Source: Spirochaetaceae bacterium
GTDB taxonomy: Bacteria > Spirochaetota > Spirochaetia > Treponematales > Breznakiellaceae
Length of the DNA stretch: 64,000 nt
Direction of reading: 5' to 3'
NCBI GenBank assembly: GCA_031277165.1
Contig: JAISLT010000091.1
Location: 1 to 64,000 of the forward strand
Both the position numbers and the translations under genes were made by a program. Numbering within the stretch: position 1 is the stretch's first letter; every line of letters begins with the position of its first letter. The notes under the pieces are model-generated. The model made no database searches. It had not been told where the DNA came from and saw nothing but the letters and a program-made list of their open reading frames with translations. Positions 1,864-11,654 of the stretch are shown here, in pieces.

Positions 1864-1926
1864 GGAAGGAACCGGCTGATTCCTTGTCTGACAAACAATT
1901 ACAAGCTAATCCTTAGACAATTTCAA
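1835..1926 (-). repeat. Promoter-bearing hairpin repeat, copy 1
   Basis: Read on the minus strand, the repeat starts with AAATTGTCTAAGGATT, runs through GTAATTGTTTGTCAG, forms an imperfect hairpin (TTTGTCAGACAAGGAA against its complement, about 14 of 16 pairs), and ends in CTGACAAACCCAAATCTATG and TATAC. Copies 2 (8252-8350) and 3 (31999-32070) share this order. It lies between alr and clpP and begins within a few bases of the alr stop. Confidence 0.75.
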
Positions 1927-3083
1927 ATTGCCGGGGAATAGCTTGGTGTATAGCCGGGCTTTAAAACAGCCGGCCCGTCAATATAAACCCGGGGAACCCG
2001 TTTATTGATATTGCAGGTAATTTCATAGGGGATGGTACCAACCAGGGAAGCCATTGTTCCCGCATGGGGGGCCTTTCCGCCAAAGATCGTAACCCTGTCC
2101 CATCGGTGAAGACCGCTGTCCTGTCCTAAATCTACCATACATTGATCCATGCAGATTCTGCCCGCCAGGGGCCGCAGGGTGTCCCCGGCCAGGATCCGCC
2201 ATTTATTGCTAAGCCCCCGTGAAAGACCGTCGGCGTACCCCAGGGGAATGGTTCCGATGATCGTACCGGTCTTTGCCTTCCATGTTCTGCCGTAAGAAAC
2301 CGTTTCTCCCCTGCGTACGGACTTAATAAAGACCACGCTGCTTACCAGTTCCATTAAGGGTTTTACCCCCAGGGCGGCATTACCGCTTTTGTCCGCCGGG
2401 GCATAACCGTAGAGTAAAATCCCCGGTCTTACCATATCAAACCAAGCGTTCTTATAAAAGGTTACAGCGCCGGTGTTTGCCGCGTGGATTAACCCCGGAT
2501 CCACCCCCACGGCTTTTATGGCCTCCACCGCCGTATAAAAGGCCCCAATCTGCTTTTTTGTAAAAGCCCTGTCGCCGGGAGCTAAGGAATCGGAGACCGC
2601 CAGGTGGGTGGCGGTTCCCGCCAGAACCAGGTTCTTACTCTTTGCGATCCGGCAGGCCATGGCCGGCGCCTGGGCGGGTCTGCATCCTATGCGGCCCATG
2701 CCGGTGTCGATCTTTAGGTGGATCCGGATCTGTTTTCCTGTCCTGGAAGCTTCCTGCTCCAAGGCGTCTATGTATTCCTCGTCCCCCGCCAGGGGCTCCA
2801 AATCCGAAGCGGCCAGCTGTTTAATTTCCTCCGGCAGGGGTATAGAAAGAAGCATCACCGGCGCATCCACCCCCCCCCTTCTAAGCCCGGTTCCTTCCCC
2901 CACGGTGGCAACCGCCAGGTGCTGTACCCCCGCGGCCAGGGCCGCCTTTGCCACCATCAAGGCCCCGTGTCCGTATGCATCGGCCTTAACGGGCATGCAG
3001 ACCGCCCGGCCTGTTTTTTCCCTAACCAGGGCTATGTTTTCCCTTAGATGATCCAAATGAATAAACGCCCGGGTAGCCCGCAT
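1923..3083 (-). CDS. alr: Alanine racemase
   Basis: 386 aa. This PLP enzyme interconverts L- and D-alanine for peptidoglycan. The PLP lysine is Lys33 in VKADAYGHG, and the second catalytic base is the tyrosine in VSYGRTW (about residue 266). GRICMDQCMVDLG is the typical C-terminal beta-domain block. The length is normal. The start ATG (3081-3083) lies 6 nt after a TATAGT -10 box, so the mRNA is predicted to be leaderless. The gene stops at the edge of the hairpin repeat that drives clpP. It is divergent from the lipoprotein gene at 3148 and shares its -35 hexamer. Confidence 0.95.
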   Translation of the reverse strand: MRATRAFIHLDHLRENIALVREKTGRAVCMPVKADAYGHGALMVAKAALAAGVQHLAVATVGEGTGLRRGGVDAPVMLLSIPLPEEIKQLAASDLEPLAGDEEYIDALEQEASRTGKQIRIHLKIDTGMGRIGCRPAQAPAMACRIAKSKNLVLAGTATHLAVSDSLAPGDRAFTKKQIGAFYTAVEAIKAVGVDPGLIHAANTGAVTFYKNAWFDMVRPGILLYGYAPADKSGNAALGVKPLMELVSSVVFIKSVRRGETVSYGRTWKAKTGTIIGTIPLGYADGLSRGLSNKWRILAGDTLRPLAGRICMDQCMVDLGQDSGLHRWDRVTIFGGKAPHAGTMASLVGTIPYEITCNINKRVPRVYIDGPAVLKPGYTPSYSPAI

Positions 3084-3089
3084 AGAAAC

Positions 3090-3141
3090 ACTATACCAGT
3101 TCCGGGCAATTCTTACAATTGTATTCTCCCTATGGTATACT
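3090..3141. promoter_or_regulatory. Divergent alr / lipoprotein promoters sharing one -35 hexamer
   Basis: Plus strand: TTACAA (3113-3118), 17 bp, TATACT (3136-3141), then 6 nt to the GTG at 3148. Minus strand: TTGTAA (the same bases 3113-3118), 17 bp, TATAGT (3090-3095), then 6 nt to the ATG at 3083. Both transcripts would begin at their start codons. Confidence 0.7.
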
Positions 3142-5420: not shown

Positions 5421-5810
5421 TTAAAAGAAGGGAAAACTGGATCCGGAAGCAGGTTCCGGCGGTTTCTTCTCCGCTGCGGGCTTCTTAGCCGCGGGTTTTT
5501 TTGCTGCGGGCTTCTTGGCCGCCGCAGTTTTCTTAGCCGCGGGTTTTTTTGCTGCGGGCTTCTTAGCCGCAGTTTTCTTAGCCGCGGGTTTTTTTGCTGC
5601 GGGCTTCTTGGCCGCCGCAGTTTTCTTCGCCGCGGGTTTTTTTGCTGCGGGCTTCTTGGCCGCCGCAGTCTTCTTTGCCGCGGGCTTTTTAGCTGCGGTG
5701 GTTTTCTTCGCCGCGGGCTTTTTAGCCGCGGGTTTCTTAGCTGTGGTGGTTTTCTTAACCGCCGGTTTCTTCGCCGCAGGTTTCCGTGCAGGCGTCTTCG
5801 GTTCAGGCAT
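5421..5810 (-). CDS. Histone H1-like Lys/Ala/Pro-rich DNA-binding protein
   Basis: 129 aa made almost entirely of the repeat AAKKPAAKK with TAAAKK variants, plus a short N-terminus (MPEPKTPARKP) and a non-repetitive end (EPASGSSFPFF). Such tails bind DNA non-specifically by charge, like eukaryotic H1 C-termini, Hc2 of chlamydiae and AlgP. No globular or HU domain is present. The start ATG (5808-5810) has AAAGGAG at 5 nt. The repeat DNA can expand or shrink by recombination, so the length probably varies between strains. The protein is expected to act in the nucleoid. Confidence 0.85.
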   Translation of the reverse strand: MPEPKTPARKPAAKKPAVKKTTTAKKPAAKKPAAKKTTAAKKPAAKKTAAAKKPAAKKPAAKKTAAAKKPAAKKPAAKKTAAKKPAAKKPAAKKTAAAKKPAAKKPAAKKPAAEKKPPEPASGSSFPFF

Positions 5811-8402: not shown

Positions 8403-10454
8403 TCACTTGCCGGTTTTTCTGTCAAAGTGGGAAAATTCCATGGAAAATGTTGCCCTGCCCTGGCTTACGCTGCGCAGGGCGGTCATAAAACCGAACATCT
8501 TTGCCATAGGAGCGGATGCCTTAACCTGATCTGATCCGCCCTTGGAATCCATGCTAAGCACCTGTCCCCCCCGGGCGGTCATTAGGCTTATCACATCCCC
8601 CACAAATTCTTTGGGGGAAAAAAGATCCACCGCCATGACCGGTTCTAGCAGAAAGGGTTCCGCCTCCCGGGCGGCTTCGTCAAACCCCATACTGGCGCAG
8701 GCTTCAAAGGCAAATTCTGTTCCGGTAAGCTCCGAATAGTCAATGTCTGTGACGGTTACCCCCACGTCAATACAGGGATACCCCAGAAGTATCCCCGATG
8801 CCAGGGCCCCCCGAATTCCCCGTTCTATGGCTTCCAGGATAGGGCCGGGAACGGAAGCGCCGGCCATGCACCGGTATTCATTCCCCGATCCCCGGGAAAG
8901 ACTTTCAAGTTTCAGCGTTAGGGCCGCGGTATTTTCCTTTCCTCCGATAACCCTGGAGAATTTTTCCCTTCGTTCCACGCCTTTGCCTATCGATTCCCGG
9001 TAGGTAACCTGGGGATTCCCCACCTTGGCCTTAAGCCCGTAGTCTTTTAGGATCTTGGTTACCAGCACGTCCAGGTGCAGTTCTCCCATGCCGGAAATAA
9101 TAAGCTGGCCCGTTTCGTCGTTTTCTTTGGCGGTAAATGTGGGGTCTTCCCGGGAAAGGATCCCTAGAATTTCCTTAAGTTTATCTCCCTCGGAAATAGT
9201 CTTGGGTTCCAGGGCTACGGAGATAACCGGCTCGGGAAACTGCATGGTGTCCAACAGCACCGGCCAGCCTTCGCTGCCCACGGTGTCTCCGGTCTGGGCA
9301 AGCTTCATCCCTATGACAACCCCAATATCCCCCGCGGTCAGTTCATCCATGGGTTCCGGCTTATTTGAATGCATCCGCAGTATACGATTGGCCCGCTCCC
9401 GTTTTCGCTTTCCCATGTTATACAGGGCCGTTCCGCTCTTAATGGTTCCCGAATACATCCGCAGATAGCAGAGGCTCCCCGCTTCCCGGTCATTCTGGAT
9501 CTTAAACACCAGGGCCAGGGGCGGGGCCCCGGGATCGCAGGGGACCGGAATATCCTCGTCCTTTTTAAGGTGCCGCCCCACCGCGGGTTTTATTTCTTCC
9601 GGCGACGGAAGGTAATCCACGATGGCGTCAATTAAGGGCTGGACCCCCGTGTTGCGGCGGGAAGCCCCGGCCAGTACGGGAAGGAGCCTCCGTTCCAGGG
9701 CTGCCCTGCGCAGTTCTGCCCTGATTAATTCCGGGGGCAGTCTTTCCCCCCCCAGGTATTTTTCCGTTATGGCATCGGACACCGCAGAGAGGCTGTCGAT
9801 AAGCTTTTCCCGCCATTCCCGGGCCTGGCCTTCCCGTTCCCCCGCCAGGGGAAGGCGCTCTATGGTATCCCCGCCGTTTCCGCTGTTCCAGCGCAGTTCT
9901 TCCATTTCTATTAAATCCACCACCCCCTCGAAGGAATTTTCCCGGCCCATGGGAATTTGGATGGCAATGGGCTTAATAGCCAGCTTTTCGCTTATATCCG
10001 CCAGGACCTGAAAAAAATCCGCCCCCGCCCGGTCCATTTTATTCACGTACCCTATGCAGGGCGTTAGGTACCGTTCCGCCTGCCGCCACACCGTTTCTGT
10101 CTGGGGTTCCACCCCCTTGACCGCATCCAGAATCACCACCGCCCCGTCCAGCACCCGCAGGGATCGTTCCACCTCCGCGGTAAAATCCACATGTCCCGGG
10201 GTATCGATAATGTTGATCTGGTAGGGCTCCGTGTCCTCTTCCCGGCGCTTCCAATAGGTTGTGGTGGAGGCGCTTTGGATCGTAATGCCCCGTTCCTGTT
10301 CCTGCTCCATCCAATCCATCACGGCCTCTCCGTCATCCACCTCTCCAATCCGGTGGCTTTTTCCGGTGTAAAAAAGGATCCGTTCGGTGGTGGTGGTCTT
10401 GCCTGCGTCAATGTGGGCCATAATGCCGATGTTGCGTATACGGGACAGCTTCAT
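8403..10454 (-). CDS. fusA: Translation elongation factor G family GTPase
   Basis: 683 aa from ATG 10452-10454. G1 AHIDAGKTTTTE is at about residues 14-25, G2 RGITIQSA near 58, G3 DTPGH near 87, and G4 NKMD near 141. Domains II to V follow, with the C-terminal SMDSKGG and AKMFGFMTALRS blocks of EF-G. The frame stays open to 10823, but the extra 123 codons lie over the divergent promoter and neighbouring gene and are not protein-like. Spirochaetes carry two EF-Gs, one for translocation and one for ribosome recycling; which this is cannot be decided here. The start codon is 6 nt after a TACAAT box, so the mRNA is predicted leaderless. Confidence 0.93.
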   Translation of the reverse strand: MKLSRIRNIGIMAHIDAGKTTTTERILFYTGKSHRIGEVDDGEAVMDWMEQEQERGITIQSASTTTYWKRREEDTEPYQINIIDTPGHVDFTAEVERSLRVLDGAVVILDAVKGVEPQTETVWRQAERYLTPCIGYVNKMDRAGADFFQVLADISEKLAIKPIAIQIPMGRENSFEGVVDLIEMEELRWNSGNGGDTIERLPLAGEREGQAREWREKLIDSLSAVSDAITEKYLGGERLPPELIRAELRRAALERRLLPVLAGASRRNTGVQPLIDAIVDYLPSPEEIKPAVGRHLKKDEDIPVPCDPGAPPLALVFKIQNDREAGSLCYLRMYSGTIKSGTALYNMGKRKRERANRILRMHSNKPEPMDELTAGDIGVVIGMKLAQTGDTVGSEGWPVLLDTMQFPEPVISVALEPKTISEGDKLKEILGILSREDPTFTAKENDETGQLIISGMGELHLDVLVTKILKDYGLKAKVGNPQVTYRESIGKGVERREKFSRVIGGKENTAALTLKLESLSRGSGNEYRCMAGASVPGPILEAIERGIRGALASGILLGYPCIDVGVTVTDIDYSELTGTEFAFEACASMGFDEAAREAEPFLLEPVMAVDLFSPKEFVGDVISLMTARGGQVLSMDSKGGSDQVKASAPMAKMFGFMTALRSVSQGRATFSMEFSHFDRKTGK

Positions 10455-10460
10455 GGGACT

Positions 10461-10490
10461 ATTGTAACAGTTTGTGTTTTTGCGTACAAT
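10461..10490. promoter_or_regulatory. Interlocked divergent promoters of fusA and the NDK gene
   Basis: Plus: TTGTAA (10462-10467), 17 bp, TACAAT (10485-10490), 6 nt, ATG 10497. Minus: TTGTAC (10484-10489), 17 bp, TACAAT (10461-10466), 6 nt, ATG at 10454. Each -35 hexamer lies on the other promoter's -10, so only one polymerase can occupy the site. Confidence 0.7.
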
Positions 10491-10496
10491 GGCCCC

Positions 10497-11654
10497 ATGA
10501 GTTACGAACTTTCCTATGTTATGGTTACCCCCTATACCATAGCTAAAAGCCGTACCGGCGGCGTAATTGCCCGGCTTCTTTCCCGGCTGGATTTGGAACT
10601 TGTGGGTGCCCGGATGATCATCCCCGATGAAAAATTCGTCGATGAATATGCGGCGCTTATGCGGGAACAAAATTCGGCCAAAGACACCCTGCTGGCGGAT
10701 TATGTGCAGCGGAATTTTATTTCCGGCGGAAGGGCCCACCGTATTCTGCTGCTCCTCTTCCGCGGCCAAGACGCCTGCCGGAAGCTTTCCGACATATGCG
10801 GCACCCTTTACGAGGAGAACCAAAGCATTGAATCCCTGGCGGGGGAAACTATCCGGGATACCTATGCGGATCTTATCTTTGATCAGGCCGATCCCGCGAA
10901 GGTAAGCTACTTTGAACCGGCGGTCCTTACCCCCAGAAACCAGAGGGACGCGAACGCCGATCTTGCCTTGATTGTCCGCTTTTTGGAGGGCAAAGAAAAC
11001 ATTGTTTCCAACATGGTTTATCCGGACCTTTCAAAGATAGAACAAACCCTGGTAATTATTAAACCCGACAACTGGAATTATGCATCGTCTAAACCGGGAA
11101 CGATCATAGATATGTTTTCCCGGACGGGGATGCGGATTGTGGGAATTAAGATACACCAGTTTACCCTGGCGGAGGCGCTGGAATTTTACGGCCCCGTGGA
11201 AAATGCCCTTAAGGAAAAGCTTGCCCCGGTTTTTGGAAAAAAGGCCGCGGAACTGCTGGAACGGGAATTTTCTGTAATTCTTGGGGAGGATGTTAAAAAA
11301 AGCCTAAGCGAAATTTTAGGAACAGAAATAGCCCGCAGTCAGTTTAGGGATATTATCGAATTTATGTCGGGCCGCAGGCCGGGTACGGACCTGCAAAAAC
11401 CGGTAAAGTGTATGATCCTTATTTACGAAGGAGAGGGGGCGGTGGGAAAGATCCGGGAAGTTCTGGGCCCCACGGATCCCCTAAAAGCCCCCGGTGGTAC
11501 GGTACGGCGGGACTTTGGCAGCAACGTAATGGTCAACACCGCCCACGCCTCGGATTCCCCCGCCAGCGCCGAGCGGGAGAAACGGATTGTCAAGATCGGC
11601 GAAAACACGGTCCGGGAAATTATCCTGGAATACCTTGCCGGGAACGGGGTATAG
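10497..11654 (+). CDS. Two-domain nucleoside diphosphate kinase
   Basis: 385 aa from ATG 10497. The N-terminal part (YVMVTPYTIAKSRTGGVIARLL...) looks like a degenerate NDK half. The C-terminal part restarts with QTLVIIKPDNWN (about residue 180) and ends with NTAHASDSPASAEREI-type sequence, where the His of NxxH-SDS is the phosphorylated catalytic histidine. Between them are about 100 residues of helical sequence, and an insert lies inside the second domain. NDK moves gamma-phosphate between nucleotides; usual enzymes are about 140 aa and single-domain. The longer upstream frame (from 10191) is antisense to fusA and is rejected. The mRNA is predicted leaderless. Confidence 0.8.
   Translation: MSYELSYVMVTPYTIAKSRTGGVIARLLSRLDLELVGARMIIPDEKFVDEYAALMREQNSAKDTLLADYVQRNFISGGRAHRILLLLFRGQDACRKLSDICGTLYEENQSIESLAGETIRDTYADLIFDQADPAKVSYFEPAVLTPRNQRDANADLALIVRFLEGKENIVSNMVYPDLSKIEQTLVIIKPDNWNYASSKPGTIIDMFSRTGMRIVGIKIHQFTLAEALEFYGPVENALKEKLAPVFGKKAAELLEREFSVILGEDVKKSLSEILGTEIARSQFRDIIEFMSGRRPGTDLQKPVKCMILIYEGEGAVGKIREVLGPTDPLKAPGGTVRRDFGSNVMVNTAHASDSPASAEREKRIVKIGENTVREIILEYLAGNGV

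Follow-up and report, generated by a model that had tools for sequence, protein, structure and literature searches.

A palindrome conserved between the EF-G2 and nucleoside diphosphate kinase genes of gut spirochaetes appears to hold two interlocked promoters with predicted leaderless starts

Introduction

In the stretch of DNA analysed here (64,000 nucleotides of a Spirochaetaceae contig, hereafter the window), a gene for an elongation factor G (EF-G) and a gene for a nucleoside diphosphate kinase (NDK) diverge from start codons separated by 42 bp (10455-10496). How can so short a gap serve both genes, and what would sharing it mean for their expression? A preliminary description of the locus had proposed two promoters in which each -35 box overlaps the -10 box of the other, an arrangement said to force a translation GTPase and a GTP-producing kinase into mutual exclusion. 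We examined the geometry of this element, its conservation, the start regions of the genes of this genome and the identity of the two gene products.

Results

Two facing promoters are predicted within a 30-bp palindrome

ATTGTA (10461-10466) and TACAAT (10485-10490), read directly from the sequence, are exact reverse complements with 18 bp between them. On the + strand this gives TTGTAA-17 bp-TACAAT-6 nt-ATG for NDK and on the - strand TTGTAC-17 bp-TACAAT-6 nt-ATG for EF-G, with predicted transcription starts 43 bp apart (Table 1). On these points the preliminary description was accurate: both TTGTA(A/C)-17-TACAAT promoters, the overlap of each -35 with the opposite -10, the 6 nt to both start codons and the 42 bp between the latter are exactly as it gave them. 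It had missed the absence of Shine-Dalgarno sequences next to start-adjacent -10 boxes, hence the predicted leaderless mRNAs.

An independent promoter scan recovered the + promoter (9/12 matches) and detected no second + promoter within 9500-11500. The - promoter has 8/12 matches plus a TGn extended -10. Both are far from consensus, the -35 hexamers in particular being weak (4/6 and 3/6). In both directions the second base of the -10 box is A and the sixth is T, and the two boxes of each promoter lie 17 or 18 bp apart in all 18 species that carry the element, inside the 16-18 bp range set for such promoters. The locus therefore appears to contain two facing promoters of the sigma-70 type, each 6-bp block providing the -10 of one and part of the -35 of the other.

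Table 1. Positions of the two genes and of the predicted promoter elements in the window
Feature	Position	Strand	Remarks
Nucleoside diphosphate kinase, 385 aa	10497..11654	+	predicted leaderless; predicted transcription start 10497
EF-G paralogue, spdEFG2 type, 683 aa	8403..10454	-	predicted leaderless; predicted transcription start 10454
Interrupted palindrome ATTGTA-N18-TACAAT	10461..10490	.	carrier of both predicted promoters; hexamers kept in 18 species; N18 in 8, N19 in 10
Predicted NDK promoter -35, TTGTAA	10462..10467	+	first five bases are, on the opposite strand, bases of the EF-G2 -10
Predicted NDK promoter -10, TACAAT	10485..10490	+	ATG 6 nt on; overlaps the EF-G2 -35
Predicted EF-G2 promoter -35, TTGTAC	10484..10489	-	
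Predicted EF-G2 promoter -10, TACAAT	10461..10466	-	ATG 6 nt on
EF-G2 promoter extended -10, TGT	10467..10469	-	TGn in 15/18 species on the EF-G side

The geometry is not explained by chance

Since TACAA and TTGTA are reverse complements, either promoter nearly creates the other, and the two promoters are not two independent coincidences. This automatic symmetry does not account for where the two start codons lie, nor for the last base of either -10. When the 42-bp gap was shuffled, a reciprocal pair arose in 0.026% of cases, and a reciprocal pair with both starts 5-8 nt away in 0.005% (5 of 100,000). A third of the genome was sampled, and of the 54 divergent gaps tested there the EF-G2/NDK gap alone had the full geometry. 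A chance origin was rejected on the strength of these shuffles and of the conservation in 18 species described below; judged by these sequence comparisons, the element is real and conserved.

Only two sites in the whole genome match TTGTA-N18..20-TACAAT. The second, which is also the only other ATTGTA-N18-TACAAT (L090:1500-1531, corresponding to G000 contig C91:9791-9820), forms part of a longer 9-bp hairpin (AATTGTACC...GGTACAATT) with convergent genes on either side, and is perhaps a terminator. From the reading of their ORFs, these genes were named HD-GYP-like and dihydroorotate dehydrogenase-like. A motif common to both sites was rejected, this copy being a hairpin between convergent genes.

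The hexamers are invariant in 18 species while the spacer drifts

A search for NDK in named genomes returned 80 loci, chiefly from termite-gut Treponema and relatives of Breznakiella, mostly as metagenome assemblies; of the 81 rows examined, 14 had the palindrome ahead of NDK. With further genomes, the element of this clade was counted in 18 species of Treponema-like gut spirochaetes. In the EF-G tree, 13 palindrome loci, among them the window and L186, form one clade (SH-aLRT 99), so that the palindrome requires a single change and no member of the clade lacks it. Four more palindrome species were added after this tree was made, and L006, whose EF-G was too short for it, falls with the clade in a tree of NDK sequences. 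This NDK tree has lower resolution; on its own it would require three changes of the palindrome, not one, and it places L068 apart from the palindrome clade. Two NDK-bearing contigs, L077 (a Desulfovibrio MAG) and L013 (a Treponema denticola MAG), are likely to be mis-binned or misnamed.

All 12 hexamer columns are invariant in the 14 aligned species, including the final T on the NDK side (10490), and in some relatives the repeat is longer by one base pair, reaching 7 bp (ATTGTAA...TTACAAT). Between far pairs, spacer identity is 45%, close to the 47% found at four-fold degenerate sites, of which 8 of 241 columns (3.3%) are invariant over 13 rows; the drift of the spacer is on a par with that of synonymous sites. 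The distance between the hexamers is 18 bp in 8 species and 19 bp in 10, which corresponds to 17 or 18 bp from -35 to -10 and lies within the tolerance of sigma-70. The proposal that the overlap would be conserved in related genomes thus held for the hexamers; their spacing is not fixed and takes one of two values. The TGn of the EF-G side has no counterpart on the NDK side in any of the 18 species (20 rows compared, two of them the same loci read in reverse). A pattern search across the family gave a match in 80 of 200 genomes, mostly with unrelated spacers and at other places, so that the raw counts mean little; we used only the matches at the EF-G2/NDK gap.

EF-G2 and NDK are also adjacent in other clades that do not have the interlock; there, a Shine-Dalgarno leader often precedes NDK. 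This suggests that the interlock arose later, inside a pre-existing gene pair. In related divergent gene pairs of this kind the middle bases of the EF-G2 -10 vary (TATATT, TAATAT, TAAAAT, TAGAAT, TATTAT and once TACAAT), whereas throughout the interlocked clade they are always CAA, in both hexamers and in every species. T is the base at -10 position 3 in 20 of 33 leaderless-type genes of the genome (see below). CAA, at positions 3-5 of one -10, is the TTG of the opposite -35, and the C at position 3 is the G of that TTG; the pattern is therefore as expected if each block is read twice. Each block of base pairs appears to serve as a -10 on one strand and as a -35 on the other.

Both genes, like many others in this genome, are predicted to be leaderless

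Neither EF-G2 nor NDK of the window is preceded by a Shine-Dalgarno sequence. Across the interlocked species, the EF-G start codon lies 5-7 nt from its -10 in 17 of 18, and it tracks the -10 even though the stretch before RNIG spans 5 to 12 residues; in one case the start is GTG. The NDK start codon lies 5-9 nt from its -10 (8-9 nt in 10 of the 18), so that NDK leaders of 1-3 nt are possible. In the interlocked context NDK has no Shine-Dalgarno sequence, unlike other NDK orthologues. The combination of a -10 box 5-9 nt from the start with no Shine-Dalgarno sequence was found on both sides, the exception being the EF-G side of L186. Because of these two features, both mRNAs are probably leaderless.

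In L186 the start codon in frame with EF-G lies at a distance of 51 nt and is preceded by a Shine-Dalgarno sequence. The EF-G2 start is thereby shifted by 44 nt (near 2756-2847 of this locus). At 7 nt from the -10 there is another ATG, out of frame with EF-G2; the short ORF that begins with it (MNKPSLTKPSGRRDP) ends at the EF-G2 start, its stop codon and that start overlapping as ATGA. This short ORF may be a leaderless upstream ORF with translational coupling.

For the genome as a whole, we called 666 genes in 830 kb with a simple home-made codon model blind to -10 boxes. Ahead of first-of-unit genes, TAnnnT peaks at a distance of exactly 6 nt from the start codon, where 33 of 350 such genes have it against 8.2 expected (P 5e-11); none of 211 operon-internal genes has it there. 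These 33 genes start with ATG in all cases except one, the ATG being preceded by a pyrimidine in 26. A Shine-Dalgarno sequence accompanies only 1 of the 33, compared with 163 of the 317 other first-of-unit genes, and a -35-like match of at least 4/6 was found in 17, compared with 3.6 in shuffles. The same TAnnnT peak, less sharp, is present in relatives. Near-start -10 boxes on both sides were found in six of the 23 divergent gaps that measure 30-110 bp, where background would give about 0.3, and none of the six is tighter than the EF-G2/NDK locus. This genome thus seems to use leaderless transcription as an ordinary, genome-wide mode, in agreement with the start-adjacent -10 promoters of Deinococcus (PMC12340547) and with a study that predicted leaderless genes for 6 out of 18 Spirochaetes genomes (PMC3160421). 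Leaderless expression in gut spirochaetes may be sizeable, though little studied, and many transcription starts and start codons would then be predictable from sequence.

The EF-G is probably a recycling paralogue

Three EF-G genes were found in this genome, which is 82% complete: the one in the window, one on C91 and one on C7. The EF-G of C91 has the GKDG insertion of spdEFG1 and scores 803 bits against mtEFG1 versus 393 against mtEFG2; that of C7 resembles EFG II. The EF-G of the window has no KDG in switch I and scores 476 bits against mtEFG2 versus 435 against mtEFG1. According to the spdEFG1/spdEFG2 classification scheme (PMC3150367), it has the features of spdEFG2: no KDG, an spdEFG1 alongside, no EFG I in the genome, and greater closeness to mtEFG2 than to mtEFG1. 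The spdEFG2 of Borrelia burgdorferi acts in ribosome recycling without translocation (Suematsu 2010, as cited in PMC3150367). From signature, co-occurrence and scores, the window protein is probably spdEFG2, a recycling paralogue and not the translocase. The name fusA, in the sense of a translocase, is probably wrong.

The NDK is the only one found in the genome. It is unusual in that the NDK domain of its C-terminal half, which bears the histidine motif NTAHASDS, is split ahead of this motif by about 70 residues (233-304); the N-terminal half is NDK-like and has no evident catalytic histidine. Elsewhere in the window, at 5421-5810 on the - strand, an ORF of 129 residues with lysine/alanine repeats (KKPAAKK...) resembles a histone H1-like DNA-binding protein.

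Discussion

We hold with good confidence that the element is a compact bidirectional promoter, used by the housekeeping sigma factor in either orientation and giving rise to two leaderless mRNAs. In this model, whose transcription starts, sigma factor, leaderless translation, promoter strengths and lack of strong competition we infer from the sequence, RNA polymerase with its housekeeping sigma factor would bind the 30-bp element in one of two opposite orientations. In one, 10485-10490 would act as the -10 and 10462-10467 as the -35, and transcription would start at the A of the NDK start codon; the opposite orientation would exchange these roles and start transcription at the A of the EF-G2 start codon. 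The two mRNAs would begin at the start codon, or 1-3 nt before it, and be translated leaderless. Each hexamer would be fixed by its double duty, the CAA of one -10 being the TTG of the other -35. Given their overlapping predicted footprints, only one orientation should be occupied by polymerase at a time; since the -35 boxes match at only 3/6 and 4/6 positions, joint expression of the two genes would nevertheless be expected at ordinary levels of activity.

The claim that the overlap forces mutual exclusion does not follow from this geometry, as overlapping binding is not the same as exclusive expression. A switch of this kind, in which the common site would make EF-G and NDK expression mutually exclusive and couple GTP supply to translation, would draw on the fact that the overlap bars simultaneous binding and is conserved over 18 species. 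However, five bidirectional promoters of E. coli showed no competition at basal activity and competed only once activity rose (PMC12825309). Both promoters here are far from consensus, and divergent transcription entails no head-on collision. The two genes are also neighbours in clades that do not have the interlock, often with a Shine-Dalgarno-led NDK, and a GTP link is therefore unnecessary to explain the gene neighbourhood. With an EF-G that is probably a recycling paralogue, we regard such a switch as highly improbable.

Alternatively, the palindrome could be the operator of a dimeric regulator with ATTGTA half-sites, its likeness to promoters being secondary. Invariant inverted half-sites around a drifting spacer, and a repeat that reaches 7 bp in some relatives, would suit such an operator. 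On the other hand, the change of spacing between 18 and 19 bp would rotate the half-sites relative to each other, while it suits the 17/18 bp of sigma-70, and the sole other genomic site, in a convergent hairpin, argues against a regulon. The start codons stand 5-9 nt from the half-sites, as in the other leaderless genes of the genome, and non-interlocked relatives retain TAnnnT before EF-G2 without a half-site. As the spacing varies and no regulon was found, we rejected an operator as the main reading and consider it very unlikely. A single working promoter, most likely that of EF-G2, with the other a by-product of symmetry and the second gene expressed from elsewhere, would be in line with the near-complementarity by which one promoter almost makes the other, and with an extended -10 confined to the EF-G2 side. 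Against this possibility stand the conservation of the NDK-side T (10490) and of the 5-9 nt to the NDK ATG, as well as the absence here of the Shine-Dalgarno sequence that other NDK orthologues have, and no other + promoter was found at 9500-11500; we think it unlikely.

For the divergent ilvY and ilvC genes of E. coli, we know of no hexamers in common to the two promoters. As described in PMC4469952, these promoters are likewise close and back to back and are coupled by DNA topology; there, supercoiling couples them within a LysR-type regulatory system. Bidirectional promoters have been defined by divergent starts 7-25 bp apart (mostly 18) and overlapping -10 boxes (Warman et al., Nat Microbiol 2021, cited in PMC10268837; PMC12825309). 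Going by these accounts, the EF-G2/NDK element resembles them in its near-symmetry, and would share with them a polymerase that binds in two orientations, divergent mRNAs and the exclusion of one binding event by the other. It differs in that each -10 overlaps the opposite -35 instead of the other -10, the -10 boxes being separate and the predicted starts 43 bp apart, which places it outside that definition, and in that both mRNAs are predicted to be leaderless. The start-adjacent -10 boxes of Deinococcus-Thermus (PMC12340547) also lie a few nt before the ATG, with no Shine-Dalgarno sequence and a helpful -35, whereas here two such starts face each other with elements common to both. The core promoters of the divergent EcoRV restriction-modification genes (PMC5333194) overlap in part, so that polymerase cannot bind both; they are under C protein control, and reciprocal use of hexamers with two leaderless starts is not described there. 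Partly overlapping divergent promoters were already known; what is new is the apparent reciprocal dual use of each hexamer together with predicted leaderless starts on both sides. In the open-access papers searched, we found no case of reciprocal -10/-35 sharing with two leaderless starts conserved in many species.

Finally, the element may be a selected minimal, dual-coded promoter with doubly constrained hexamers in which the leaderless state of EF-G2 serves a purpose during a shortfall in recycling. In RRF-deficient E. coli, leaderless mRNAs are still translated and Shine-Dalgarno mRNAs are not (Moll 2004, as cited in PMC7531240). If the idea were true, 70S ribosomes would pile up as recycling falters, and the leaderless EF-G2 mRNA would still be translated, so that the factor would be made when needed. 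This would be in line with the Shine-Dalgarno sequence of spdEFG1, the translocase type, in 30 of 30 relatives (L220-L249) against the leaderless pattern of EF-G2 in 17 of the 18 interlocked species. Outside the clade, however, EF-G2 starts are mixed (6 leaderless and 14 with a Shine-Dalgarno sequence among 20 distant relatives), and the RRF gene of relatives has no start-adjacent leaderless pattern and an AGGT-type Shine-Dalgarno sequence instead; for these reasons we give the idea low weight and find it rather doubtful. An RRF gene was not found in the genome of the window itself, at its 82% completeness. Across the family, leaderless and Shine-Dalgarno-led starts of spdEFG2 (L190-L219) alternate.

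Returning to the bidirectional promoter, the locus offers a natural test case: six base pairs that are seemingly read twice have been retained by 18 species, and the drift of the spacer serves as an internal control. The locus also permits a direct in vivo test of competition between overlapping divergent promoters.

Reciprocal promoter-like boxes are also present in another divergent gap of the window (3083-3130; intergenic gap of 154 bp). On its - strand, the gene at 1922-3083 has TTGTAA-17-TATAGT 6 nt ahead of its ATG; on its + strand we read TATACC-16-TACAAT. A divergent gap of 47 bp (L102:11032-11078, G000 contig C11) has -10-like boxes 6 and 8 nt from the start codons; these boxes, ACTATA...TATACT, are 21 bp apart, so that the footprints would overlap while the hexamers remain separate.
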